DNA of 64,000 nt from Streptomyces liangshanensis (lineage in GTDB: Bacteria; Actinomycetota; Actinomycetes; Streptomycetales; Streptomycetaceae). The position numbers and the translations under genes were made by a program. The DNA lies in the NCBI RefSeq assembly GCF_011694815.1, contig NZ_CP050177.1, positions 1,178,001 through 1,242,000 of the forward strand. The letters run 5' to 3'. Under the pieces are notes generated by a model that was given only the letters and a program-made list of their open reading frames with translations, had not been told where the DNA came from and made no database searches. Below, piece after piece: positions 1 through 12,015 of the stretch. Position 1 is the stretch's first letter. Every line of letters begins with the position of its first letter.

Positions 1-2244
1 CGCCGCGCCGTCCCCGTCCCGCACGGAGGTGACCTCGTCGGCGTCCGTCAGGTCGGTGACGGTGTTGCGGTAGAACTCGTCGACGTCCCAGGCGTCCCAC
101 TGGTTGGGGAAGTCGGGGTGGATCTGGAGGAGGTTGGCGGCCTCGCCGGGGGCGACGGTCTCCCGCTCGGCGGCGATGTCGTACGCCGACACGACCAGTC
201 CGCGGCCGTCGACCACGACCTCCAGCAGCCCGTTGCCCAGGACGAACCCGCCGTCCTCGCGGGGCGACACCTCCACCTGGCCCGCTCCCCCGGCCGGCCC
301 GGCCGCGCCCGCCGGGACGCCGTGGCGCGGGTGGGGCGCGGAGTTGAAGACCAGGGCCGTCCCGCCGGAGGGGTCGCCGGCCAGGGCGCGCTGCGCGTCG
401 TCGATGATGCCGTCGAGCTCCGCGGCCAGCGCGGCGTAGGTCCTCTCGGCCTCGCGGTGCACCCAGGCGATGGAGGAGCCGGGCAGGATGTCGTGGAACT
501 GGTGGAGCAGCACGGTCTTCCAGATCCGGTCCAGCGCTTCGTACGGGTAGCTGTACGGAGCCCCGGCCGGCGACCCGGCCCGTACGGCGGCGGTGGCCGC
601 CCACAGCTCGGCCTCGCGCAGGAGGTGCTCGCTGCGCCGGTTGCCCTGCTTGGTCTTCGCCTGGCTGGTGAGGGTCGCGCGGTGCAGTTCCAGGTACAGC
701 TCACCGACCCACACGGGCGGGTTCGGGTATTCCGCCTCGGCCTTCTCGAAGAACGCGGCGGGGGACTCCCACTCGACGGTGGCGGAGCCCTCCAGGCTGC
801 GCATCCGCGCGGCCTTGCCGATCATCTCGCGCGTGGTGCCGCCGCCGCCGTCGCCCCAGCCGGTGGGGGCGAGGGAGTGCCGGGCGACGCCCTTCTCCTT
901 GAAGTTGCGGGCCGCGTGGGCGATCTGTTCGCCGGTCATCGAGCAGTTGTAGGAGTCGACGGGCGGGAAGTGCGTGAAGATCCGGGTGCCGTCGATGCCC
1001 TCCCAGTCGAAGGTGTGGTGGGGGAACTTGTTGATCGTGCTCCAGGAGATCTTCTGGGTGAGGAGCCACTTGGACCCGGCGGCCTTGATGATCTGGGGCA
1101 GTCCGGCCGCGAAGCCGAACGTGTCGGGCAGCCACGCCTCGTCGTTCTCGATGCCGAACTCGTCGAGGAAGAAGCGCTTGCCGTGCACGAACTGCCGGGC
1201 CATGGCCTCGGACCCGGGCATGTTCGTGTCGGACTCGACCCACATGCCGCCCGCGGGCACGAAGCGGCCCTCGGCGACGGCCTTCTTGACCTTGGCGTAG
1301 ACCTCGGGCCGGTGCTCCTTGATCCAGGCGAACTGCTGCGCCTGCGACATCGCGAAGACGAAGTCGGGCTCGTCCTCCAGCAGCGCGGTCATGTTCGCCG
1401 TGGTGCGGGCGACCTTGCGGACGGTCTCGCGCAGCGGCCACAGCCACGCGGAGTCGATGTGGGCGTGGCCGACGGCGCTGATGTGGTGGGCGGTCGCCGG
1501 GGCCGGGGTGGCCAGGACGTCGGCGAGCCGCTCGCGGGCGGCCGCGGCGGTGCCGTTGACGTCCTGGAGGTCGACGGCGTCCAGCGCGCGGCCGACGGCG
1601 CGCAGGATCTCCCAGCGGCGGGCGCCCTCGACGGGCAGCTCGGCCATCAGCTCCCCGAGCACCTCCAGGTCCAGGACGAGCTGCCACACGTTCTCGTCGA
1701 AGACGGCGAGGTCCATGCGGGCGAGGCGGTACTGCGGCTCCGTACCGGCCGTCTCCTTGTCGCCGAGGGTGGTGGGCACGAAGGGCTGGTAGTCGAGGAT
1801 GACCGGGTTGGAGGCCGCCTCGATGTGGAGCACCACCTCTTCGCCGCCCGCCACAGGGGCGCCGATCCGCACCCACTGGTTGCGCGGGTTGAGGCCCTTC
1901 ACGGGCGAGCCGTCGGGCCGGTAGACGAGGCCCTCGCACTGGAATCCGGGCATGTTCTCGTCGAAGCCGAGGTCGAGGATCGCCTCCACGGTCCGGCCCG
2001 CCCAGTGCTGGGGGACGGTGCCGGACACGCGGAACCAGCTGGTGGCCCAGGGCGCGCCCCACCGGTCGCCGACGGCGGCCGGCCTCGTCGGTCCCGCGAG
2101 CCCCTCCTCGACCGGCACCGGTTCGCCCGGCGCGTCCCAGACGGCGACCTCCAGCGGGGTCGATTCGGGGTAGACGGCAGGACGGATGCGCTCGTCGAGA
2201 ACGCGCTTGAGGCGTGCTTCGACCAGGCTGCGGTCGTCATGCAT
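1..2244 (-). CDS. Alpha-mannosidase, GH38 family (3' end outside window)
   Basis: Glycoside hydrolase family 38 enzyme that removes alpha-linked mannose. The product starts MHDDRSLVEARLK with no signal peptide, so it is inferred to be cytoplasmic. The metal-binding motif GHAHIDSAWLWPL and the nucleophile segment WLPDTFGFAAGLPQI are both present, followed by the helical middle domain and part of the C-terminal beta domain. The start is the ATG at 2244; an AGGAG lies about 10 bases upstream. The frame is open to the window edge, so the C-terminus is missing here. It lies 70 bases downstream of the GH85 gene on the same strand and is probably the last visible gene of the sugar-uptake operon. Context points to trimming of imported high-mannose glycans. 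Confidence 0.93.
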   Translation of the reverse strand, partial: MHDDRSLVEARLKRVLDERIRPAVYPESTPLEVAVWDAPGEPVPVEEGLAGPTRPAAVGDRWGAPWATSWFRVSGTVPQHWAGRTVEAILDLGFDENMPGFQCEGLVYRPDGSPVKGLNPRNQWVRIGAPVAGGEEVVLHIEAASNPVILDYQPFVPTTLGDKETAGTEPQYRLARMDLAVFDENVWQLVLDLEVLGELMAELPVEGARRWEILRAVGRALDAVDLQDVNGTAAAARERLADVLATPAPATAHHISAVGHAHIDSAWLWPLRETVRKVARTTANMTALLEDEPDFVFAMSQAQQFAWIKEHRPEVYAKVKKAVAEGRFVPAGGMWVESDTNMPGSEAMARQFVHGKRFFLDEFGIENDEAWLPDTFGFAAGLPQIIKAAGSKWLLTQKISWSTINKFPHHTFDWEGIDGTRIFTHFPPVDSYNCSMTGEQIAHAARNFKEKGVARHSLAPTGWGDGGGGTTREMIGKAARMRSLEGSATVEWESPAAFFEKAEAEYPNPPVWVGELYLELHRATLTSQAKTKQGNRRSEHLLREAELWAATAAVRAGSPAGAPYSYPYEALDRIWKTVLLHQFHDILPGSSIAWVHREAERTYAALAAELDGIIDDAQRALAGDPSGGTALVFNSAPHPRHGVPAGAAGPAGGAGQVEVSPREDGGFVLGNGLLEVVVDGRGLVVSAYDIAAERETVAPGEAANLLQIHPDFPNQWDAWDVDEFYRNTVTDLTDADEVTSVRDGDGAA

Positions 2245-2314
2245 GAGGGGAGGCTCCTGTAGGACGTGAGAGTGCGGGGTACGGACGTACGGGTACGGGT
2301 CGGACGGGTCGGGA

Positions 2315-4426
2315 CTACCAGGGGCGTTCCGTCCCGACAGCCGACGAGACCTGGTACGCCTCCGAAACACTACGCACCTCGAAACGGACCGCGCTCTCAC
2401 CCTGTTCCGCCTGGACAGCGGGGACATGGTAGGCGGTGCCCGGGGTCCCGCCCAAGAAGCGCCGGGAGCCGTCGGGCAGCACCCGGTGCAGCTCGTAGTG
2501 GCGGACCGCGCCCGGGGCCCGGTCCCAGGCGAGGCGGAAGGCGGTGCCGGTGGTGTCGGGCGCGGTGGAGGTGATGCGCGGGGCGGCCGGGGCGGCGGGC
2601 GCGGTCGTCGCGTTGTGGACCGAGAGCGCGCCGAGCCGGAAGCGTACGGACGTGGCGCCTGTGCCCGCCGTGAGGCGTAGGCCGAGGGCGTGGACGGTGC
2701 CCGAGGGCTGTCCGGCGAGCAGGCCGGACAGCCGCAGCGTGGCGGTGCTCCAGCCGGTGCCGGGCCGCAGTGTGCCGGCGGGCAGGTAGGTGTACGGGAC
2801 GGCCGCGCCGGGTGTCGCCGGCTCACGGGTGGCGACGGCCAGCTCCACGACCACGGGGCCGGCGTCCGCGCGGTAGGTGAGGTCCACGACCGTGTCGGCG
2901 GTGAGGGGCAGCCGGGTGCTGTAGAGGTCGACGGTGGCGGGCGCGGTGAGGGCGCCGTCCACCAGCAGGCTGCTGCCGCCGCGCCAGGCGTCGGCGAAGT
3001 CGAAGGTGACGGCCGGCCGGACGCCGGTGGTGCGCACGACCCAGCGGCGGTTGGGCAGCCGGTCCTGGAGGCCGAGGTGGTTCCAGGCCGTGGTGGAGGT
3101 GACCGTGCCGCGGTCGTACCAGCGCAGGCCGTGGCCGGTGTTGAAGGTCGACGCGAAGGGCAGGGCCCGTACGGTCGACCGGTCGGCGACGGTGACGGCG
3201 GGCGCCCGCCAGCTGCCCGCGGTGTCGGGGCTCGACGGGTCGAGGGACTGGCCCGTCCAGAAGCGGTCGTCGGCGGCGTGGAACTGGCCCGGGGTGCGGC
3301 CGGCCGGGAGCTGGTTGCGGGTCCACTCGGGGCGGTAGAAGCCGAGGGACACGACGTGCGGGCGGTCGAGGGGGACGATGGCGTTCCAGTTGACGGACCT
3401 GTTCCAGCCGCTCGCCTCGACGTCCACGCCGGCCCACAGTTCGTAGCGGTCGCGGCCGAGGTTCTGGGCGAGGGTGCCGGAGGAGGCGAGGGTGGCCGCG
3501 CTCCACCGGAAGTCCAGGAACATCGAGTCGCTGACCTTGCCGCTCGCGTCCTGGAAGAAGGTCTGGTTGGCGGAGTTGAGGGCGCCCTGCCAGGAGACGC
3601 CGCCGCCGGTGGTCATCGAGTCGTACCAGGTGACCTTGAGGCCCCTGGCCTGGCTGAGCGCGCGCAGCCGGCGCAGGAAGCCGTTCATGTCGGTGGCGAG
3701 GGCCGCGTTGCCGCCGCCGGTCTCGGCGTTGATGAACCACCCGTCGAAGCCGTACGCGACGGCCACCTCGACCAGCTTGTCGGCGAGCGGGTAGCCGCCC
3801 GCCGGGTCGCGCTGGACGAGGTCGCGGGTCCACTGGAGCTGGCCGCCGTAGGCGGCGGGCGGCAGGAAGACGTTGCCGAGGACGGGGACGCCGTTGCGGT
3901 GGGCGGCGTCCACGACGGGGGCGTTGGGGGCGAGGATCAGGCCCTCGCCGGAGGAGCCGCCCCAGAAGACCAGTTCGTCGATGTACTGCCAGTGGGCGAG
4001 GGCGTAGTAGTCGGCGGTGGCGGAGCCCTGGGAGGGGTTCTGGGCCGTGGGGCCGAAGGAGACGAGCGAGGAGACGCGGGCCTGGCCGGCGCGGGCGGTG
4101 GTGTTGACGGGCACGGGGGTGAAGCGCGGGGCGAGGGGGACGGACGCCCGGTTGAAGGCGAGGTCCGGGTCGTCGTCGGCGCGCCAGGTCTTCAGGCCGC
4201 GCCAGGTGATGCCGGCGCCGGGGGTCCCCGCGGGGAGGGAGTCCGGGTACCAGTAGGAGGCGTACGGGGCGTTCGCTGCCGCCGCCGCGGGGGTGGCCGC
4301 TTCGGGGGCCGCGCCGGTCGCCGCGGCGGCGGGGCCCGCGAGGGCGGTGGCGGCCGTGGCGGCGCCCGCGAGGACGACGGTACGGCGGGTGGGGCGGGTG
4401 GCTCTCGGTGTCTCCGACGGGTTCAC
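2315..4426 (-). CDS. Secreted endo-beta-N-acetylglucosaminidase, GH85
   Basis: GH85 enzymes cut the GlcNAc-GlcNAc bond in the chitobiose core of N-glycans, releasing the mannose-rich glycan. The catalytic segment GFDGWFINAET carries the Asn/Glu pair of the family (N233 and E235 from this start). The N-terminus has a twin-arginine signal (TRRTVVLAG, then an Ala-rich h-region), so the enzyme is predicted to be exported by Tat. A fibronectin-III-like domain occupies roughly the last 90 residues. I chose the GTG at 4426 because GGAGAG lies 7 bases upstream and the signal peptide then starts properly. An in-frame GTG at 4492 would add 22 residues before the signal and has no good ribosome site. 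Length is 703 residues. It follows the GH5 gene by about 80 bases. Confidence 0.9.
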   Translation of the reverse strand: MNPSETPRATRPTRRTVVLAGAATAATALAGPAAAATGAAPEAATPAAAAANAPYASYWYPDSLPAGTPGAGITWRGLKTWRADDDPDLAFNRASVPLAPRFTPVPVNTTARAGQARVSSLVSFGPTAQNPSQGSATADYYALAHWQYIDELVFWGGSSGEGLILAPNAPVVDAAHRNGVPVLGNVFLPPAAYGGQLQWTRDLVQRDPAGGYPLADKLVEVAVAYGFDGWFINAETGGGNAALATDMNGFLRRLRALSQARGLKVTWYDSMTTGGGVSWQGALNSANQTFFQDASGKVSDSMFLDFRWSAATLASSGTLAQNLGRDRYELWAGVDVEASGWNRSVNWNAIVPLDRPHVVSLGFYRPEWTRNQLPAGRTPGQFHAADDRFWTGQSLDPSSPDTAGSWRAPAVTVADRSTVRALPFASTFNTGHGLRWYDRGTVTSTTAWNHLGLQDRLPNRRWVVRTTGVRPAVTFDFADAWRGGSSLLVDGALTAPATVDLYSTRLPLTADTVVDLTYRADAGPVVVELAVATREPATPGAAVPYTYLPAGTLRPGTGWSTATLRLSGLLAGQPSGTVHALGLRLTAGTGATSVRFRLGALSVHNATTAPAAPAAPRITSTAPDTTGTAFRLAWDRAPGAVRHYELHRVLPDGSRRFLGGTPGTAYHVPAVQAEQGESAVRFEVRSVSEAYQVSSAVGTERPW

Positions 4427-4505
4427 TTGGCTCTCCGTATCGTTGGGGGGCGATTCCGGTGCTGAGCTGAACTGGTCAGTGCCGTAAGGCACTTGGGGGC
4501 GCCGT

Positions 4506-5777
4506 TCATCGGACGTCGTGCGGGCGGAGGACCTCGGTGATCCCTCGGGCCGCCAGATGCATCTTGTCCCTCGCGAGGCTCTCCAGAACCACCGCGGGCC
4601 GGTGACCTTCCTCCGTCAGCCGGGCGAAGGCCTCGAAGAACTCCCCGCCGGGCCCGCAGGTCGCGCGGCGCGGCGAGGTCGTGTCGTCGCCGGTGTCGAG
4701 GGCGAGGGCGGTGGTGCGGACGGCGGGCCGGTACTCCTGGCCGCGCCGTTCCCGTACGATCCGGGCGATCGTCTCCCCGGCGGGCTTCACCTTCCGGTCG
4801 TTGGTCAACAGACCGAGGCTGTATTCGAGTTCGGGGAAGTCGGCGAGGTCCCGGGACACGTCGTGGGAGCACCACCAGGTGACGCCCCAGACGTCCGCGC
4901 AGTCCAGCGCGTTGGCCACGGTGGCCTCGGTGAAGGCGGCGGCGTGCTCGGCGGGGATCAGCGGGGCGGGGGCGCCGACCTCCTGGAGCCAGACGGGCCG
5001 GTGCGGGTCGAGCGCCCAGGCCTTGGACAGCTCGATCAGGTACGCGGCGTGGTGCTCGGTGGCGCTGCCGGTCCGGCCGTGGCGCTGGGCGGTGCCGTTG
5101 AACACCCAGGAGTGCACGGCGGTGACGGCGCCGAGGCGGGCCGCGTGGGCGGGCGTGAAGGGGTGGTCGTCCACGTACCAGGCGGCGTCGTACTCGGCGT
5201 GGAGGTGGAGCTTGCCGGGGGCGCCCTCCTCGCACGCGTCGAGCAGCTGGGTCAGCCATGTGCCCGCCTGTTCGGGCGTGATGGGGTCCGGGTCGGGGTG
5301 CGGGGGTCCGGAGAACTGGTTGATCTCGTTGCCGATGGTCATGCCGATGAAGTTCGGCAGGCCGGCGAGCGCGGCGGCGAGTGTCCGCAGGTACGCGGCC
5401 TGTCCGGCGACCACGTCGGGGTCGGTGAAGAGGTTGCGCCGGTGCCAGGTCTGCGTCCAGGCGGGCAGGAAGTCGAAGCTGGACAGGTGCCCCTGGAGCC
5501 CGTCGACGTTGACGTCCAGGCCGCGTTCGGCGGCGGCCTCGGCGAGCTGGACGAGCTGCTCGACGGCACGGGGCCTGATCAGGGTGCGGTTGGGCTGGAA
5601 GAGCGGCCACAGCGGGAAGACCCGGATGTGGTCGAGTCCGAGTCCGGCGAGGGAGTCCAGGTCGGCCCGCACGGCGTCGAGGTCGAAGTCCAGCCAGTGG
5701 TGGAACCACCCCTGGCTGGGCGTGTAGTTGGCGCCGAAGCGCGGCACGGAAGGTCTCCTACGGGCAGAGGTGCTCAT
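4506..5777 (-). CDS. GH5 glycosidase, probable GH5_18-type beta-mannosidase
   Basis: TIM-barrel glycoside hydrolase of clan A, 423 residues, no signal peptide, so inferred cytoplasmic. The acid/base is E151 in MTIGNEINQF and the nucleophile E266 in WLQEVGAP. The segments RFGANYTPSQGWF, VFPLWPLFQPNRTLIRP and LQGHLSSFDFLPAW match my memory of the GH5_18 group, whose studied Bifidobacterium members split the Man-beta-1,4-GlcNAc disaccharide left after alpha-mannose trimming. I infer the same role from the GH85 and GH38 neighbours. A generic endo-mannanase is less likely because there is no export signal. It lies 91 bases after the permease gene and just before the GH85 gene. Subfamily assignment is from memory of motifs, not a search. 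Confidence 0.85.
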   Translation of the reverse strand: MSTSARRRPSVPRFGANYTPSQGWFHHWLDFDLDAVRADLDSLAGLGLDHIRVFPLWPLFQPNRTLIRPRAVEQLVQLAEAAAERGLDVNVDGLQGHLSSFDFLPAWTQTWHRRNLFTDPDVVAGQAAYLRTLAAALAGLPNFIGMTIGNEINQFSGPPHPDPDPITPEQAGTWLTQLLDACEEGAPGKLHLHAEYDAAWYVDDHPFTPAHAARLGAVTAVHSWVFNGTAQRHGRTGSATEHHAAYLIELSKAWALDPHRPVWLQEVGAPAPLIPAEHAAAFTEATVANALDCADVWGVTWWCSHDVSRDLADFPELEYSLGLLTNDRKVKPAGETIARIVRERRGQEYRPAVRTTALALDTGDDTTSPRRATCGPGGEFFEAFARLTEEGHRPAVVLESLARDKMHLAARGITEVLRPHDVR

Positions 5778-5868
5778 ACGGTGGACGGTTCCTGGTTCTC
5801 GGTCGGCCGGAGCCGGGCGGTCGGGGGGCCGGGACGGTCGGGGGAAGCCGGACGGGTGTGCGGGTCGG

Positions 5869-6729
5869 TCAGCCCTTGACGGCGCCTTCGCCGACGCCCC
5901 GGAAGAAGTACCGCTGGAGGCAGGCGAAGAGGGCGATCAGCGGGGCCACGGCGATGATCGTGCCCGCCGCGACGAGCCGTTCGTCGTTGGCGAAGGTGCC
6001 GTGGAGGTAGTTCAGCCCGATGGTGAGGGTGAACTTGTCCGGGTCGCTCAGCACGATGAGCGGCCAGAGGAAGTCGTCCCAGGCACCCATGAAGGCGAAG
6101 ATCGCGACGACGGCGAGAGTGCCCTTGACGGACGGCAGGGCGATCCTGAGGAACCGCTGCCACACGTTCGCGCCGTCCACGAAGGCCGCCTCCTCCACCT
6201 CCAGCGGGAGGTTGAGGAACGCGTTGCGCATCAGCAGGACGTTGATCGCGCTGATGGAGCCGGGCAGGAGCACCCCGATCAGGGTGTTGTTCAGCCCCAG
6301 CTCCCGCATGGTGGTGAACTGGGCGATGATCAGGCCCTCGACGGGGACGAGCATCGCGAGGATGAACGCCAGGGTCGCGGCCCGCCGCCCCCGGTAGCGC
6401 ATCCGGGCCAGCGCGTAGCCGGCCAGCGCGGCGCCGACGCAGTTGGTGACGACGTTGGCGGCGGCGACCTTGAGCGAGTTGAAGGCGTAGTCCCACACCG
6501 GGATGGTGTCGGCGACCCGGCCGTAGTTGCCCAGGGTCGGATCGCCCGGCAGGAACGACGGCGGGGAGCTGAAGATGTCCTCGTGCGGGCCCTTGAGCGA
6601 GGTGGACAGCTGCCAGAGGAACGGGCCCACCGTCAGCGCCAGTACGGCGATCAGCAGGACGTACCGCAGGACGAGCTGCCAGGGCGCGACGCGCCGCCCC
6701 TCGGCGTCGGTGACGGTCGGCGCGTTCAC
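5869..6729 (-). CDS. Sugar ABC transporter permease, MalG type
   Basis: Inner-membrane subunit of a carbohydrate ABC importer (CUT1 type), 286 residues. It has six predicted hydrophobic segments beginning VLRYVLLIAVLALTVGPFLW. The EAA loop that docks on the ATPase is visible as EAAFVDGANVWQRFLRIALP. The start is the GTG at 6729, preceded by AAGGAGG, and it overlaps the stop of the upstream permease in a GTGA junction, so the two are translationally coupled. No ATP-binding subunit is encoded nearby. Streptomyces CUT1 importers commonly share the MsiK ATPase encoded elsewhere, which I infer applies here. Confidence 0.93.
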   Translation of the reverse strand: MNAPTVTDAEGRRVAPWQLVLRYVLLIAVLALTVGPFLWQLSTSLKGPHEDIFSSPPSFLPGDPTLGNYGRVADTIPVWDYAFNSLKVAAANVVTNCVGAALAGYALARMRYRGRRAATLAFILAMLVPVEGLIIAQFTTMRELGLNNTLIGVLLPGSISAINVLLMRNAFLNLPLEVEEAAFVDGANVWQRFLRIALPSVKGTLAVVAIFAFMGAWDDFLWPLIVLSDPDKFTLTIGLNYLHGTFANDERLVAAGTIIAVAPLIALFACLQRYFFRGVGEGAVKG

Positions 6730-7664
6730 GCGTCCTCCTTGCGGTCGGCGCGGAGCACCAGCAGCATCAGGGCGACCACCACGACGAAGACGACGACGGA
6801 GAGGGCGGAGGCGTACCCGACCCGTCCGCTCAGGCCGGTGCCGACGCGCTGGACGAGCATCACGAGGGTGGTGTCCTCCCCGGCGGGGCCGCCGTTGGGG
6901 CCCGCCATCAGGTAGACCTCGGAGAAGACCTTGAAGGCGGCGACCGAGGAGAGGGCGGCCACGAGGACCATGGTGGAGCGGACCGCCGGGACGGTGACGG
7001 TGACGAACCGCCGTACGGCCCCCGCCCCGTCCACGGCCGCGGCCTCGTGCAGTTCGCGCGGCACGTTCGCCAGCGCGGCGAGATAGATGATCATGTAGTA
7101 GCCGAGGCCCTTCCAGACCGTGACGGCCATGGAGCTGACCAGCAGCAGCCACTGGTCGCTGAGGAAGCCCACCTTCCCGATCCCGACGGTCTCCAGCAGC
7201 GCGTTGATCAGGCCCCGGTCGTCGAGCATCCACACCCAGATCAGCCCGACGACGACGATCGAGGCGACGACCGGCGTGTAGAAGGCGGCGCGGAAGAAGG
7301 CGATGCCGGGGATGTGTCGCTGGACCAGCAGGGCCAGCAGCAGGGGCAGGATCACCAGCGCGGGGACGACGCCGAGGACGTACAGCGTGCTGTTGCGCAG
7401 GCCGATCCAGAACATGTCGTCGTGGAGCAGCTCGCGGAAGTTGGCGAGCCCGACGAAGTGTCCGGGCAGGAGCGTCCGCCGGTCCGTGAAGGAGTTGATC
7501 ACGGTGCTGACGAACGGGTAGAGGCTGAAGACGGCGACGATCAGCAGCCCGGGGGCGGCGAACAGCCAGGGGCTGTACGCCAGATGGCGCCGGATGCCGC
7601 GGGCGGCCCCGGGGGCGGGGCGGGCCGCCGCGGCGGCGGTGGGTGCGGTGGCGGGCACGGTCAT
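6726..7664 (-). CDS. Sugar ABC transporter permease, MalF type
   Basis: Partner permease of the CUT1 importer, 312 residues, about six membrane segments. The N-terminus is Ala/Pro-rich and cytoplasmic, followed by SPWLFAAPGLLIVAVFSLYPF. The EAA loop reads LHEAAAVDGAGAVRRFVTVTVP. The ATG at 7664 lies 11 bases after the binding-protein stop. The gene ends in the GTGA overlap with the MalG-type gene. Together with the lipoprotein it should move an oligosaccharide across the membrane. The GH5, GH85 and GH38 neighbours suggest an N-glycan-derived oligosaccharide. Confidence 0.93.
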   Translation of the reverse strand: MTVPATAPTAAAAARPAPGAARGIRRHLAYSPWLFAAPGLLIVAVFSLYPFVSTVINSFTDRRTLLPGHFVGLANFRELLHDDMFWIGLRNSTLYVLGVVPALVILPLLLALLVQRHIPGIAFFRAAFYTPVVASIVVVGLIWVWMLDDRGLINALLETVGIGKVGFLSDQWLLLVSSMAVTVWKGLGYYMIIYLAALANVPRELHEAAAVDGAGAVRRFVTVTVPAVRSTMVLVAALSSVAAFKVFSEVYLMAGPNGGPAGEDTTLVMLVQRVGTGLSGRVGYASALSVVVFVVVVALMLLVLRADRKEDA

Positions 7665-7675
7665 GGGGGCTCGGC

Positions 7676-8977
7676 TCAGCTCTGCTGGAGCAGGCGGTCG
7701 CACGCCTTGACGGCGTTGTCGAGTGCTTCCTTGGGACTCTGCTTGCCCTGGAGCGCCTTGGCCACCTCGTTGCCCAGCGCGGTCTTCATCTGGTCGCTGA
7801 ACTGGACCGGGGTGTAGTTGACCGCGTTCTTCAGGGACTTGGCGGCGGCTATCCGTACCCGCGTCTCGTCGGTGCCGTCCTCCTTGGTGAAGTACGGGTC
7901 GTCGAGGGATCCGGCGGTGCTCGGGAAGATGGCGACCTGCTTGGCGAACGCCATCTGCCGGGTCGCGTCCGTCACGAAGTGGCCGAACGCCACGGCCGCG
8001 GGCTTCCGCTTGCTCTGGGAGTTGACCATCACCCCCATGACGTACATGTTCACCTTGCCGGTGTTGGTGATCTGGTCGGTGATCCCGATGTTCTTGTAGA
8101 GGTTCGGCGCCTGCTTCTTGAAGTTGCCGAGGTCCAGGGCGCTGCCGGGGTTCATCGCCACCGACTCGGTGAGGAACTTGTGGCCCGCCGACTCGGGGGT
8201 GGCGGTGAGCGCCTGGGGGTCGAGCGCCTTGGCGTCGTACAACTCCTTGTAGCGGGTGAGGAGTTGTACGCCCTTGGCGTCGTTGAAGGCGAAGCCCGTA
8301 CCGGCCTTGTTGGTCAACTGCGCGCCGTAGCGGCCGAAGTCCTCGATGGTGGGCACGTTGGCGAGGGTCGCGATCTTCCCGCCGCTCTGCTTCGCGATCC
8401 GCAGTCCGGCGTCGAAGACCTGGTCGTACGTGGTCGGCGGCTTCTCGGGGTCGAGACCCGCGTCCTTGAAGAGGCGCTTGTTGTAGAAAAGCGGGCCGGT
8501 GTTCAGGTACCAGGGGAAGGCGTACGTCCCCTCGACGCCCGGCACCTGGTCGCCCGCCCAGGCGCCCGGCAGGTACTCCTTGCGGTACTGGGCCGCGGAC
8601 TTGTCGAGGTCCAGCGCGAGTCCGGCCTTCACCAGCGGGGCCAGCAGGTCCGGCGAGACGTTGACGACGTCGGGGAGCGTGCCGCCGGCGGCGTCGGCGC
8701 TGATCTTGTCGGCGTAGCCGTCGGCCGGCCGGTCGACCCACTTCACCTCCGTGCCCGGGTACTTCTTCTCGAAGTCGGCGATGACCCCGTTGAAGTAGTC
8801 CTTGAAGTTGGCCTGGAGGTTCCAGGTCTGGAAGGTGATCTTGCCTTCGATCTTGCCGGAGGCGTCGGAGGACGAGCCCGCGTCGGACCCTCCCCCGCAG
8901 GCGCTGAGGGGCAGGACGGTGGCGAGGACAACGGCGGCGGTGACGGTTCTGCGGGAGATGCGGCGGGCGATACGCAC
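7676..8977 (-). CDS. Extracellular sugar-binding lipoprotein of ABC importer
   Basis: Solute-binding protein of the CUT1 importer, 433 residues. It carries a lipoprotein signal: an Arg-rich start, a hydrophobic stretch and the lipobox LSAC, followed by a Gly/Ser/Asp linker, so it should be anchored on the outer face of the membrane. The body fits family 1 extracellular solute-binding proteins (FQTWNLQANFKDYF near the start, EKKYPGTEVKWVDRP). The start is the GTG at 8977 with AAAGGAG nine bases upstream; a longer frame to 9061 has no such site and would bury the signal peptide. It is the first gene of the operon and lies behind the promoter and operator region divergent from the LacI-type gene. 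Confidence 0.93.
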   Translation of the reverse strand: MRIARRISRRTVTAAVVLATVLPLSACGGGSDAGSSSDASGKIEGKITFQTWNLQANFKDYFNGVIADFEKKYPGTEVKWVDRPADGYADKISADAAGGTLPDVVNVSPDLLAPLVKAGLALDLDKSAAQYRKEYLPGAWAGDQVPGVEGTYAFPWYLNTGPLFYNKRLFKDAGLDPEKPPTTYDQVFDAGLRIAKQSGGKIATLANVPTIEDFGRYGAQLTNKAGTGFAFNDAKGVQLLTRYKELYDAKALDPQALTATPESAGHKFLTESVAMNPGSALDLGNFKKQAPNLYKNIGITDQITNTGKVNMYVMGVMVNSQSKRKPAAVAFGHFVTDATRQMAFAKQVAIFPSTAGSLDDPYFTKEDGTDETRVRIAAAKSLKNAVNYTPVQFSDQMKTALGNEVAKALQGKQSPKEALDNAVKACDRLLQQS

Positions 8978-9057
8978 GGTGAACGGCTCCTTTGCTCGGA
9001 CCAGGCGTGCGCGGGCGGGCCGGAGCTGAGGACATCCGGGCCGCCCGCGCCTCGCAG

Positions 9058-9086
9058 ACATTGCAATGCGCCGGGGGGAAAGTCAA
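9058..9086 (-). promoter_or_regulatory. Candidate promoter of the importer/glycosidase operon with palindrome over -10
   Basis: On the minus strand TTGACT (9086-9081) is followed after 17 bases by CAATGT (9063-9058). The perfect 10-base palindrome CATTGCAATG (9059-9068) covers the -10 box and is followed on the plus strand by CGC, giving the AATGCGC core also seen in the twin sites at 9188-9224. This layout suits repression by the divergent LacI-type protein. The -10 match is weak, so the promoter itself is a guess. Confidence 0.4.
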
Positions 9087-9187
9087 CAGATCGGTCACAG
9101 GGAATCCGTCCGGAAGCCGTGGATAAGTCAAAGGGCAGGCAATAATGCCAGCTCAGCGCGTTGTAACGACCGAATCACGATGAATCG

Positions 9188-9224
9188 CTAATGCGCTTTA
9201 GCCGATACGACTCAAGCGCATTAG
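9188..9224. promoter_or_regulatory. Twin inverted operator-like sites between lacI-type gene and importer operon
   Basis: CTAATGCGCTTTAG (9188-9201) and CTCAAGCGCATTAG (9211-9224) are inverted copies of each other with one mismatch in 14 bases, separated by 9 bases. Each is itself a near-palindrome centred on GCGC, the usual form of LacI/GalR-family operators. They lie in the 338-base divergent intergenic region (8978-9315), about 90 bases before the LacI-type start. I infer binding by that regulator; autoregulation would also fit. I see nothing else clear in the rest of this gap. Confidence 0.55.
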
Positions 9225-9315
9225 TGCGCGGGAGGACTTCGCTCGCCCACGGCGGCGGGAAGGCATACGATGCCGACGTCGTACATCGGGCGAAACGCGA
9301 GGATCGGGGCATCGG

Positions 9316-10401
9316 GTGGGAGCGAAGGGGACGTCGTCCGGAGGGGCCCCGCAGGCCAGGCGCGGCCCCGCCCGCCGTCCGACGATGAAGGACATCGCCC
9401 AGCGCGCGGGGGTGTCGGAGAGCGCCGTGTCCTTCGCGCTCAACGACCGGCCCGGCGTCTCGGAGGTCACCCGCGACCGGGTCAGGCGGGTCGCCGAGCA
9501 GTTGGGCTGGCGGCCCAGCACCGCCGCCCGCGCGCTGTCCGGGGAGGGGTCGGCCACGGTCGGCCTGGTGCTCGCCAGGCCGGCCGCGACCCTCGGGGTG
9601 GACTCGTTCTTCCTCCAGTTGATCTCCGGCATCCAGGAGGTGCTGGCGCGACGCCAACTCGGCCTGCTCTTCCAGGTGGTGGAGGACGTCGACGCCGAGT
9701 GCGCGGTCTACCGGCGGTGGTGGGCGGAGCACCGGGTCGACGGGGTGCTCGTCGTGGACCCGAGGACCGACGACCCCCGGCCCGACCTGCTGGACGAACT
9801 GGGCCTGCCCGGTGTGGTGATCGGCGCGCTGCCCGGCGACGACGCGGGCCCGCACCCCGGCCTCTCGCAGGTGCGGGCCGACGACACCGGGGCCATGGCG
9901 TCGATCGTGGGCCGGCTGCACGAGCTGGGGCACCGGCGGATCGTGCACATCGCGGGCCTGCCCTCCTTCGCCCATACCGAGCGCCGCATCGAGTCGCTGC
10001 GGATCGAGGCCGCGCGGCGCGGCCTCGACGGGGTCCGCTCGCTCACCACGGACTACTCCGACACCGAGGGCGCCGCGGTGACCCGCCGCGTCCTGGAGGG
10101 GGGCACCCCGCCGACCGCGCTGATCTACGACAACGACGTGATGGCCGCGGCCGGGGCGGCGGTCACGGCGGGCCTGGGCCTCTCCGTGCCGCGCGACGTC
10201 TCCGTCGTGTCGTGGGAGGACTCGGCGCTCTGCCGGCTCGTCCACCCCTGGCTGACCGCCCTCTCCCGGGACACGATCGCCTTCGGGCGGATCGCCGCGG
10301 GGGAGCTGGCCGCGCTGCTCGACGGGGGCGCGGCCCGCTCCGTACAGGTGCCGCTCCCCCGGTTGATCGAGCGCGAGAGCACGGGAGAAGCACGGAAGTA
10401 G
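9316..10401 (+). CDS. LacI-family transcriptional regulator
   Basis: LacI/GalR repressor, 361 residues. The N-terminal helix-turn-helix and hinge are clear: TMKDIAQRAGVSESAVSFALN, then TRDRVRRVAEQLGWRPSTAARALS. The rest is a periplasmic-binding-like sugar-sensing domain (GLVLARPAATLGVDSFF onwards). The GTG at 9316 is used here; the ATG at 9385 would start right at the helix-turn-helix (MKDIAQRAG) and cannot be excluded, since neither has a strong ribosome site. It is divergent from the importer and glycosidase operon and is its likely local repressor, releasing DNA when an imported mannose- or GlcNAc-containing sugar binds. The 3' end runs into an 11-base tandem repeat. Confidence 0.92.
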   Translation: MGAKGTSSGGAPQARRGPARRPTMKDIAQRAGVSESAVSFALNDRPGVSEVTRDRVRRVAEQLGWRPSTAARALSGEGSATVGLVLARPAATLGVDSFFLQLISGIQEVLARRQLGLLFQVVEDVDAECAVYRRWWAEHRVDGVLVVDPRTDDPRPDLLDELGLPGVVIGALPGDDAGPHPGLSQVRADDTGAMASIVGRLHELGHRRIVHIAGLPSFAHTERRIESLRIEAARRGLDGVRSLTTDYSDTEGAAVTRRVLEGGTPPTALIYDNDVMAAAGAAVTAGLGLSVPRDVSVVSWEDSALCRLVHPWLTALSRDTIAFGRIAAGELAALLDGGAARSVQVPLPRLIERESTGEARK

Positions 10402-10485: not shown

Positions 10486-10523
10486 TTGACACCCCAAGAG
10501 ATCAAGTGATCTATTCACTTCCA
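10486..10523 (+). promoter_or_regulatory. Leaderless promoter and operator-like palindrome of the GntR gene
   Basis: TTGACA (10486-10491), an 18-base spacer and TCTATT (10510-10515) place the transcript start at about the A of the ATG at 10523. No ribosome site is present, consistent with a leaderless mRNA. AAGTGA and TCACTT (10504-10509 and 10515-10520) form a perfect 6-base inverted repeat with a 5-base spacer over the -10 box. This is the usual place and shape for GntR autoregulation. Confidence 0.6.
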
Positions 10524-11212
10524 TGAGTCGCAGTGAGGTGTCACTGTCCGAGCATCTGGCGGACAGCATCGTTGAGATCATCCGAACCGAACGGCTGGTT
10601 CCCGGGGACGTCCTGGCGTCCTCCCGGGACCTGGCCCGACGGTTCGACGTCACCACGCCCACGGTCCGCGAGGCGTTGCGCAGGCTCGAGGCCACGGGCG
10701 TGGTGGAGTTCCGGCACGGCTCGGGTACGTACGTGGGTCCCGGCAGCGAGCGGCGGCTGCTCGCCAATCCCCATCTGCCGCGCAGCAGCCGCGAGTCGGT
10801 CCTCGAACTGGTCGAGGCACGGCTCGTGCTGGAGCCCGCCGTCGCGGCCGCGGCGGCGCGGGTCCGCGAGTCCGACGCGGTGGGCCGGCTGGAGGCGGCG
10901 GCGGTCAACGCCCTGCACCCGCCGGAGGATTCACCGCTCACGTCGACGCACTTCCACGTGGCCCTCGCCGCGGCCAGCGGCAACGCGCTGCTGCGGGAGG
11001 CCGTGGAGGCGCTGCTCCAGGTCAGGGCCAGGGAACAGGTCGAGATCCGGCACCGCTACAACGACCGGGCGCGGGACCACGCCGAGCACGTGGAGATCTT
11101 CGAGGCGGTACGGGACGGCGACGCGGACGCGGCCGAGCGGCTGACCCGGGACCACCTCGGGGCCATCCGCGAGGCCGTCCTCGCCGCCGACTTCCCGGGG
11201 GGCGAGCGATGA
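10523..11212 (+). CDS. GntR-family (FadR subfamily) regulator
   Basis: 229 residues. The N-terminal winged helix-turn-helix is LADSIVEIIRTERLVPGDVLAS with the recognition region TTPTVREALRRLEATGVVEFRHGSGTYV, typical of GntR proteins. The C-terminal all-helical FCD ligand domain carries candidate metal-binding residues in STHFHVALAAASGN and the later DHAEHVEIFEAVRDGDADAAERL segment. The ATG directly follows a promoter and palindrome, suggesting autoregulation and leaderless translation. It overlaps the creatininase-family gene in an ATGA junction, so the regulator and hydrolase are co-expressed and the hydrolase is the likely target. Confidence 0.92.
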   Translation: MSRSEVSLSEHLADSIVEIIRTERLVPGDVLASSRDLARRFDVTTPTVREALRRLEATGVVEFRHGSGTYVGPGSERRLLANPHLPRSSRESVLELVEARLVLEPAVAAAAARVRESDAVGRLEAAAVNALHPPEDSPLTSTHFHVALAAASGNALLREAVEALLQVRAREQVEIRHRYNDRARDHAEHVEIFEAVRDGDADAAERLTRDHLGAIREAVLAADFPGGER

Positions 11213-12015
11213 GCACCCACGCTCCGGCGTCACCCTCCCCGGCCGCGACCCGGCCGCCGCTGCGACTGGCGGAGATGACCACGATCGAGGCGGCCGCCGC
11301 CGTCACGGCGAGCCCGGTGGTGATCCTCCCGGCGGGCGCGTTCGAACAGCACGGCCCCGGCATGCCGTTGGCCACGGACACCATCCGGGCCGAGGGGGTC
11401 GCCGAGCGGGTGGCCGCCGGACTGGGCGGGCGCGTGGTGATCGGCCCGCCCGTACCGGTCGGGGTGTCCCCGCACCACCTCGCCTTCGCCGGCACGGTCA
11501 CACTGACCACCACCACCCTGGCGGCGGTGATCCGTGAGTACGTGGAGAGCCTCTACCGGCACGGCTGGCGCAAGATCCTCGTGGTGACCGGTCACGGCGG
11601 CAACAACGCCACCCTGACCACGGTGGCGCAGGACCTGCTCACCACCCACCCCGACCTCCAGTTCGCCTGGACGCCCGTCACCCCGCTGGCCTCCGACGTC
11701 GTGTCGGGAATGGGCGTCAGCGAGGTGCACGGGCACAGCGGGGAGGCGGAGACCGCCCAGATGCTGCACCTGGCACCGCACTTGGTGCACGGTGACCGGC
11801 TGGTCCCCGGGACGACGGCGACCGACCAGCTCGATCCGCTCTCCCGGCTCGCCCGGCACGGCAGCCACCCCGCGCTCGCCGTGCGCTACGACCGGCTCAG
11901 TGAGAACGGGGTGCTCGGCGACCCGCGGTCGGCGACCCCCGCGGACGGCGAGGCGATCGTGGACGCGGTCGTCGCCCGCGTGACCGCGTTCGTCAAGGAG
12001 TGGCTGGACGTCTGA
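11209..12015 (+). CDS. Creatininase-family hydrolase
   Basis: 268 residues, creatininase / creatinine amidohydrolase superfamily. These are metal-dependent amidases including creatininase, the MftE mycofactocin peptidase and FAPy hydrolase. Metal-ligand motifs are seen in FEQHGPGMPLATDTIRAE, VTGHGGNNATL and HGHSGEAETAQML. The substrate is unknown. No mycofactocin genes are nearby, so MftE is unlikely. The ATG overlaps the GntR stop by 4 bases. The start region is Ala/Pro-rich with no signal peptide, so it is cytoplasmic. Regulation by the upstream GntR protein is inferred from the coupling. Confidence 0.9.
   Translation: MSTHAPASPSPAATRPPLRLAEMTTIEAAAAVTASPVVILPAGAFEQHGPGMPLATDTIRAEGVAERVAAGLGGRVVIGPPVPVGVSPHHLAFAGTVTLTTTTLAAVIREYVESLYRHGWRKILVVTGHGGNNATLTTVAQDLLTTHPDLQFAWTPVTPLASDVVSGMGVSEVHGHSGEAETAQMLHLAPHLVHGDRLVPGTTATDQLDPLSRLARHGSHPALAVRYDRLSENGVLGDPRSATPADGEAIVDAVVARVTAFVKEWLDV

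Follow-up and report, generated by a model that had tools for sequence, protein, structure and literature searches.

How would a soil streptomycete take apart the N-glycans on glycoproteins of other organisms, and which steps would it perform outside the cell and which inside? The locus at one end of our window (the whole stretch of DNA analysed, 64,000 nucleotides from Streptomyces liangshanensis) raises this question: an endo-glycosidase, an importer, an alpha-mannosidase and a beta-mannosidase all lie within one unit with conserved candidate operator sites. The seven parts that the original prediction had claimed, namely a LacI regulator, a binding lipoprotein, two permeases, GH5, GH85 and GH38, were all found in place (7/7). 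Judging from sequence, we consider it very probable (roughly 0.87) that this is a LacI-switched N-glycan utilisation locus, in which GH85 would cut outside the cell, the product would be imported and digestion would be completed inside.

Genes of the unit and their predicted roles

The LacI-family gene (9316..10401, or 9385..10401 from the start at MKDIAQRAG, plus strand; PF00356 E 3e-14, PF13377 E 3e-30) is divergent from a minus-strand unit whose intergenic gaps range from -4 to 91 bases. This unit begins with a sugar-binding lipoprotein (SBP, 7676..8977; PF01547 E 3e-41; lipobox LSAC read by eye), followed by permease A of the MalF/UgpA type (6726..7664; PF00528 E 4e-10; UgpA model PRK10561 E 6e-30, under the model cut-off) and permease B of the MalG/UgpE type (5869..6729; PF00528 E 6e-19; UgpE model PRK10973 E 6e-28, under the model cut-off), whose genes overlap by 4 bases. 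Next come GH5 (4506..5777), GH85 with a GTG start (2315..4426; PF03644 E 4e-82, PF21910) and GH38 (1..2244; PF01074 E 4e-93), all on the same strand. GH38 runs past the window edge; we joined the window part to the adjoining genome DNA and read the frame whole, which placed its stop at genome position 1177191, 810 bases beyond the window, and gave a protein of 1017 aa. A sigma-factor-like gene (by eye) on the opposite strand is the next after GH38, and the unit thus ends with GH38. A scan of the window region yielded no sigma-70-like promoter and two terminator-like sites, both on the plus strand and within chance in number.

The original prediction depended on GH5 lying outside the mannanase and cellulase subfamilies, and it does: a full-length match to ScGH5_18 (PDB 7lr7, E 5e-218 across residues 11-422; 7lr8, E 4e-217) places it in GH5_18. 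It also matches BlGH5_18 and BlMan5B (E 4e-112 or better), compared with merely E 9e-22 over residues 14-192 for the endo-mannanase 7bob; a Pfam search with the protein returned zero matches. Both catalytic glutamates are present, E151 (GNEINQ) and E266 (LQEVGAP), and the position of E151 is Ala in chain 7lr8. Passages of PMC6160142 give E140 and E259 as the catalytic residues of CaMan5_18, and describe the Cutibacterium acnes GH5_18 as converting Man-GlcNAc to Man and GlcNAc within 1 h while being inactive on mannan and glucomannan. We assign the GH5 here to subfamily 18, as an N-glycan-core beta-mannosidase with predicted activity on Man-beta-1,4-GlcNAc, and, having no signal peptide, as a putative cytoplasmic enzyme.

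GH85 carries a twin-arginine leader, RPTRRTVVLAGAATAATALAGPAAAA, read by eye, and would be exported via the Tat pathway. Genes in relatives were mapped with tblastn at a cut-off of E 1e-8, and in the loci that we named (the best 80 of 522) 41 of 43 GH85 proteins passed the twin-arginine pattern, with one of 44, in pieces of 300 aa or less, left out. The nearest solved relatives are 2vtf and 3fha (E about 1e-112), which we take to be Endo-A, an enzyme specific for high-mannose glycans. The catalytic pair N233/E235, in the motif DGWFINAE, aligns to 3fha chain positions 171 and 173, presumably the catalytic residues of that chain. GH85 is the sole ENGase recognised in the genome by these searches. 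A second ENGase was sought and rejected: Endo H was absent at E 1e-20, and of seven GH18 matches six were chitinase-like by eye and one fell under the Pfam cut-off. In an NCBIfam scan of four of the seven, the Endo H model, which has its cut-off at 300, matched two at only 24-25 bits. The original claim that only GH85 has a signal peptide stood in that GH85 is the sole exported enzyme, but the SBP also carries an export signal, that of a lipoprotein.

GH38 is nearest to 7ufr, 7ufs, 7uft and 7ufu (7ufs E 7e-249 across residues 11-1016), which may be the GH38 enzymes of Bifidobacterium longum; Ams1 chains come next, and we assign the protein to the Ams1 group. Its window part holds PF01074, PF09261 and PF07748, and its N-terminus, read by eye, has no signal peptide, in keeping with a predicted cytoplasmic location. 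The genome gave no GH125 match. It counts against the model that the single GH38 of the unit would have to cut alpha-1,2, alpha-1,3 and alpha-1,6 bonds and so remove every alpha-mannose. GH38 paralogues elsewhere (a tandem pair near 1.38 Mb and a single gene near 7.21 Mb) were rejected as regulon members, since with up to one mismatch allowed the operator described below is confined to the locus.

The best solved relative of the SBP reaches merely E 1e-24, too distant for its ligand to be predicted. The locus has no ATPase gene; a UgpC/MsiK-type ATPase is encoded elsewhere in the genome (4411893-4413008), the only one of 143 matches to exceed the NF008653 cut-off of 432 bits, with a score of 474. 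In streptomycetes, MsiK serves several importers.

Taken as a pathway, these parts suggest that an inducer derived from the glycan would lift the LacI repressor off its two operator sites. Following the GH85 cut, Man(n)GlcNAc would be taken up by the lipoprotein, the two permeases and the shared ATPase encoded elsewhere. In the cytoplasm, GH38 would take off the alpha-mannoses, leaving Man-beta-1,4-GlcNAc, which GH5_18 would cleave to mannose and GlcNAc. Here we infer every substrate, the SBP ligand and the flux; the imported glycan would be high-mannose, not hybrid or trimmed complex. The order that had been proposed, with GH85 outside, then import, then breakdown inside, fits the GH5_18 identity, the catalytic residues, the export signals and the variants found in relatives.

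A candidate paired operator and the variants of relatives

Two candidate operator sites lie in the gap between LacI and SBP: CTAAAGCGCATTAG at 9188..9201 (genome 1187188-1187201, minus strand) and CTCAAGCGCATTAG at 9211..9224 (genome 1187211-1187224, plus strand). The 14-bp site occurs twice in this gap in 44/44 close orthologues, with 0 matches across the surrounding 763 kb. At up to one mismatch it is found nowhere else in the own genome, and at two mismatches a single further match appears, at 4.09 Mb. When up to two mismatches were allowed, a reversed control pattern gave four matches in the same genome, and an isolated site found with that tolerance therefore carries little weight. These counts point to an operator pair that belongs to this unit alone; LacI would bind it, and repression is the direction of regulation that we propose.

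Endo H genes were rejected as members of this regulon within Streptomyces, with a good operator site at none of nine Endo H loci: eight of eight scanned with 1.5 kb flanks had no site, and at the ninth the upstream match was never better than 6 mismatches. Unlinked GH85 genes of the genus likewise had no site at the three with upstream DNA; the match of a fourth starts 21 bases from a contig end and falls outside this count. The main text of a LacI regulon survey (PMC4052901) contains "Streptomyces" and "mannosidase" zero times and "Streptomycetaceae" twice, and one passage concerns the SCO5692 regulon.

Across 61 genomes of the genus, the own included, 27 carry both GH85 and GH5_18, one GH85 alone, eight GH5_18 alone and 25 neither (Fisher p 3e-9, kinship ignored). 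These counts rest on GH85 matches at E 8e-60 or better, with the weak match of one genome dropped, and GH5 matches at E 8e-130 or better, with eight weaker ones of the genus dropped. GH5_18 lies within 5 kb of GH85 in 22 of the 27 other GH85-bearing genomes; in four it does not, and one is cut by a contig end. The synteny check across Streptomyces that the original prediction called for came out in its favour, with the unit kept as a block in the order LacI-SBP-permA-permB-GH5-(GH85)-GH38 in 41 of 60 uncut named loci (best 80 of 522). Another four of these 60 carry an additional GH38 or a GH85 that is split, and 59 of the 60 have a relative of LacI no more than 9 kb from GH5_18. GH85 is an optional part of the unit. 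Of the named loci (again the best 80 of 522), 45 are uncut and carry all other parts, and 20 of these 45 show no GH85 within 9 kb, a point against the model. A further point against it is that Endo H is also absent from seven of the eight genus genomes with GH5_18 but without GH85, and four of these seven have a less similar GH5_18.

In a sister genus, GH85 was absent from 5/5 loci inspected and Endo H was found elsewhere in 10/10 genomes, in five of the ten as a copy with a locus-type operator. Operator matches in these ten genomes fell at the locus or at Endo H and in no third kind of place; the pattern was picked once some of these sites were known, and the fair part of this result is the absence of other matches. 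The five Endo H sites belong to related genes and amount to about one event, and of nine matches at the locus, five lie in mapped gaps and four were assigned to it solely because they lie about 3.4 kb from GH5_18. In three streptomycete loci, among them those of Streptomyces sp. CB01635 and S. antnestii, GH85 has no signal peptide (one of these proteins has the motif DGYFINHE) and lies beside an Opp/Dpp-type importer and GH29, an arrangement that suggests import first and cutting later. These loci offer a natural test of the order proposed for our locus: in all three found without a signal peptide on GH85, the type of importer differs as well.

Together, these variants may reflect a single LacI-type N-glycan regulon of actinobacteria in which the cutting step can pass to another enzyme, another gene position or another cell compartment, a generalisation for which we see even odds. 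The step would be taken by an exported GH85 in the locus in Streptomyces, by an operator-tied, unlinked, exported Endo H in the sister genus, and, in a few streptomycetes, by a cytoplasmic GH85 accompanied by a fucosidase and by an Opp/Dpp-type importer that would take up whole glycopeptides. The variants make the pathway order testable: the import-first form predicts uptake of glycopeptides, and the shared operator predicts co-induction with the importer of Endo H, a widely used deglycosylation enzyme. Besides, LacI and its operator might be put to use for sensing fragments of N-glycans.

Other substrates and other purposes

The nearest competitor keeps the same pathway and changes its natural substrate, mainly to the trimmed or paucimannose core (Man3-5GlcNAc2) of plant, insect and fungal glycoproteins, with two GH92 enzymes trimming beforehand. 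The genome does have two GH92 genes, one with an N-terminal signal sequence (by eye), and in favour of this reading there is also the single GH38 of the unit, with no GH125 match in the genome. Yet the GH92 genes are 0.25 and 0.47 Mb distant, with the operator at up to one mismatch confined to the locus, and the presumed Endo-A, with its high-mannose specificity, is the nearest solved GH85. We regard this substrate as rather unlikely.

Far less plausible is a locus for beta-mannan or beta-manno-oligosaccharides with GH5 as its key enzyme, even though loci for plant oligosaccharides commonly have an importer, a LacI regulator and a GH5 beta-mannosidase. According to a section of PMC6160142, the GH5_18 of C. 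acnes slowly shortens manno-oligosaccharides from mannotriose up to mannohexaose, whereas GH85 members characterised so far act on N-glycans only, as stated in part of PMC10154615. Beta-mannan would give neither GH85 nor an alpha-mannosidase a role, and the GH5 falls in GH5_18, outside the mannanase subfamilies. Equally improbable is that the unit serves turnover of the cell's own mannosylated glycoproteins or envelope remodelling, not feeding: GH85 requires chitobiose at the core of its substrate, a structure that O-mannosylation in streptomycetes is not known to produce, and the GH5_18 of our locus lacks a signal peptide and lies together with importer genes. What speaks for this purpose comes from Actinoplanes: according to the relevant passages of PMC12691653, GimA and GimB, which share a GH5 clade with BlGH5_18 and BlMan5B, act on the matrix of the sporangium, and none of seven polysaccharides yielded a product with GimA. 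Utilisation of imported N-glycans remains our preferred reading.

Relation to known N-glycan systems

This type of locus is already described in the literature, and ours is one more example. Higgins et al. in 2021 reportedly described GH5_18 enzymes from actinobacteria of the gut and of soil whose loci also contain genes for import and for N-glycan breakdown. The nearest solved relative of our GH5 is the ScGH5_18 chain. The literature searched contained no counterpart to the paired operator, to the operator at Endo H or to the import-first variant. The own operator pair and the variants in relatives are new support for the step order.

In the B. longum locus, too, GH85 is the cutter and digestion is cytoplasmic. 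Its high-mannose locus resembles ours in having GH38 in the operon and in that the GH18/GH85 step comes without prior trimming, and differs in its three GH38 and one GH125, against one GH38 and no GH125 match here (PMC10154615, in part). B. longum also has a GH5_18 that splits Man-GlcNAc (PMC12691653, in part), the activity predicted for the GH5_18 of our locus. As a passage of PMC9599254 has it, a cluster for complex N-glycans in B. longum subsp. infantis may be under the control of the NagR paralogue NglR, in place of the LacI protein found here. The locus of C. acnes 266 shares the GH38-GH5_18 pair and ABC sugar transport genes with ours, but has GH18 and GH20 where our unit has GH85 and no GH20 (excerpts of PMC6160142).

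Homology to Ams1 links the GH38 here with the eukaryotic cytosolic pathway for free glycans. That pathway uses the GH85 ENGase and then the GH38 enzymes Man2C1/Ams1, the same families in the same order. In the streptomycete, by comparison, an export step and an importer would divide the steps, and GH5_18 would stand in for the lysosomal beta-mannosidase.

The gene unit and its enzymes

The window spans bases 1178001-1242000 of a single-contig genome of 7,716,784 bases. Near its start lies a compact minus-strand unit with intergenic gaps of -4 to 91 bases, in which Pfam and PDB searches identified a sugar-binding lipoprotein (SBP, 8977-7676), permease A (7664-6726), permease B (6729-5869), GH85 (4426-2315) and GH38, which starts at 2244 and ends beyond the window at genome position 1177191 (1017 aa at full length). 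The GH5 gene (5777-4506) was recognized by the PDB search and had no Pfam match. A LacI-family gene, found by Pfam (9316 or 9385 to 10401), is divergent from the unit. Since the neighbor past GH38 is on the opposite strand, we place the end of the unit at GH38. No ATPase gene was found within the unit; a genome search with the UgpC model gave 143 matches, one above the cut-off, at 4.41 Mb, which would fit the shared MsiK of streptomycetes. Adjoining the locus, a GntR/FCD regulator overlaps a creatininase-family gene (10523-12015), and a creatininase-like neighbor was seen again, by eye, in locus L138.

The original prediction would have failed with a GH5 of a mannanase or cellulase subfamily, and it gave a signal peptide to GH85 alone; the GH5 falls in GH5_18, and GH85 is the only exported enzyme, the SBP having a lipoprotein export signal of its own. 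GH5 matched ScGH5_18 (7lr7) near full length in the PDB search (E 5e-218), as against E 9e-22 for an endo-mannanase, over residues 14-192 only. Both catalytic glutamates are kept, and the nearest counterpart among the relatives listed is that of Streptomyces sp. SID3212 (93% identity). Read by eye, GH85 carries a twin-arginine leader, which is absent from GH5 and GH38. The closest solved relatives of GH85 are 2vtf/3fha, which we take to be Endo-A, and its catalytic Asn and Glu align; GH38 is closest to chains 7ufr/7ufs/7uft/7ufu, followed by Ams1 (PDB search). The genome had no GH125 match and encodes two GH92 genes and three GH38 paralogues besides that of the unit. The GH5_18 of C. acnes is reported to turn Man-GlcNAc into Man and GlcNAc within 1 h and to leave mannan and glucomannan untouched (PMC6160142). 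Locus L010 (8298-14538; genome about 1.377-1.384 Mb) holds a tandem pair of GH38 genes, and one of the pair shares 77% identity with the window GH38; a 2-hydroxyacid dehydrogenase gene accompanies them, and the operator site described below is absent.

Conservation of the unit

Across 100 genomes (our own and 99 relatives), counting weak matches, 32 had GH85 and 57 had GH5_18. With strong matches only, 61 Streptomyces genomes comprised 27 with both, one with GH85 alone, eight with GH5_18 alone and 25 with neither (Fisher p 3e-9, kinship ignored). GH5_18 lay within 5 kb in 22 of 27 other GH85-bearing Streptomyces genomes and not in four; one was cut. Among the named loci (the best 80 of 522 GH5_18 loci, 60 of them uncut), the full order LacI-SBP-permA-permB-GH5-GH85-GH38 recurred in 21/60, and the same order without GH85 in 20/60 more. 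A further 4/60 kept the order with an additional GH38 or with GH85 split, 10/60 had a LacI-GH5-GH85 form and 5/60 had other forms. GH85 is thus a module that may be present or absent, while the rest of the unit is fixed. In genome G036, a stretch of 57 GH85 residues survives at the normal position, and in G030 GH85 is in pieces, with an in-frame stop.

Two further arrangements were observed. Locus L158 (701-5269) carries, between LacI and SBP, a second GH38 of another group (a frame of 1522 aa with an NPCBM-associated domain), and weak GH38 matches occur at the corresponding position in other loci. Loci L115-L118 and L120 of other streptomycetes hold a GH5_18 of a second type (about 55% identity) near an SBP/permease set of 33-51% identity, with neither GH85 nor GH38 matched nearby at E 1e-8.

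A putative operator, also found at Endo H

The LacI-SBP gap contains two copies (9188-9201 and 9211-9224) of the near-palindrome CTMAAGCGCWTKAG. Of the named loci (the best 80 of 522), 44 combine an SBP with a LacI of 75% identity or higher; all 44 have two copies, spaced by 24 bases in 37/44. At up to two mismatches, 88 sites fell in 18 kb of gap versus 0 in the surrounding 763 kb. In our own genome, sites with at most one mismatch were confined to the gap; two mismatches added one site, at 4.09 Mb. Because the reversed control pattern gave 4 matches at up to two mismatches, it is pairing and conservation that count. The LacI regulator appears private to the unit. Where LacI was less than 75% identical, the same narrow pattern found a site in 7/28 loci, and some of the rest (L189, L197) had drifted forms.

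In a sister genus (g3), the ten genomes all carry both GH5_18 and an Endo H gene; GH85 occurs elsewhere in 2/10, at about 29-33% identity. The five loci inspected (L106-L110) keep LacI-SBP-perm-perm-GH5-GH38 together and lack GH85, and in their gaps TTGACA..CATAGT is followed by CTAGAGCGGTTTAG. Upstream of Endo H (up to 900 bases, up to 3 mismatches), the palindrome was matched in 12/15 loci, compared with 31/1,985 random window draws; some of these draws probably overlap the true operator. These sites include CTTGAGCGSTTTAT and CTGAATCGGTTTAT, the latter preceded by a similar promoter, TTGACA..CATATT, in two upstream sequences examined. Across the ten genomes, about 104 Mb in all, CTWGAGCGSTTTAK occurred 14 times and the reversed control 0 times: nine at the GH5_18 locus (none there in G072, 77% complete), five upstream of Endo H, 215-239 bases before the domain match, and none elsewhere. 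The five, at unlinked Endo H genes (G062:C1:3031478, G065:C7:407503, G067:C62:1693, G070:C49:4729, G073:C101:33922), fall in exactly those genomes with two Endo H copies. As the pattern was fitted after both kinds of site were known, and the Endo H genes are relatives of one another, the putative operator common to the GH5_18 locus and Endo H makes one strong case, not five.

Streptomyces Endo H loci had a good operator site in 0/9. Endo H was also absent from seven of the eight Streptomyces genomes with GH5_18 and no GH85 (G003, G007, G008, G009, G014, G028 and G045, by strong matches; the assemblies of G008, G014 and G028 are split into many contigs). Their GH5_18 may serve glycans cut by others, or by another releasing enzyme.

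A possible import-first variant and known systems

In three loci, namely L189 (585-12306, Streptomyces sp. CB01635), L197 (693-12267, S. antnestii) and L271 (7985-18171, genome G319), GH85 lacks a signal peptide from its likeliest start, SBP_bac_5 and a DppB-like permease mark the importer beside LacI as Opp/Dpp type, and a GH29 fucosidase is nearby (genes named by Pfam for L189 and by similarity for L197 and L271). Operators of the same class are kept in all three; GH5_18 adjoins GH85 in two, and L271 has no GH5_18 match. The twin-arginine pattern was passed by 41/43 GH85 proteins of the named loci (best 80 of 522), the exceptions being L189 and L197. The closest mapped GH85 relatives, in L272 and L273, have the leader; L272 has the usual SBP-permease set, and L273 is cut by a contig end. 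Relatives at E 1e-60 occurred in 12/295 sampled Streptomyces genomes, four of them with at least 63% identity (G200, G319, G125, G302), of which G200, whose GH85 is 100% identical to that of L189, and G319 are signal-less. It is possible that these loci import whole glycopeptides before cutting. The compartment of the cutter and the importer type switch together in these few loci, matching what the originally predicted order of cutting outside, import and digestion would lead one to expect.

Higgins et al. reportedly described loci of this kind earlier. The open-licence literature searched yielded no account of the operator pair, its occurrence at Endo H or the proposed import-first variant. 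Another paper cites Higgins et al. for BlGH5_18 (PMC12691653). The B. longum locus (PMC10154615) and the C. acnes locus (PMC6160142) provide close parallels, and the window locus is a new member of this kind.
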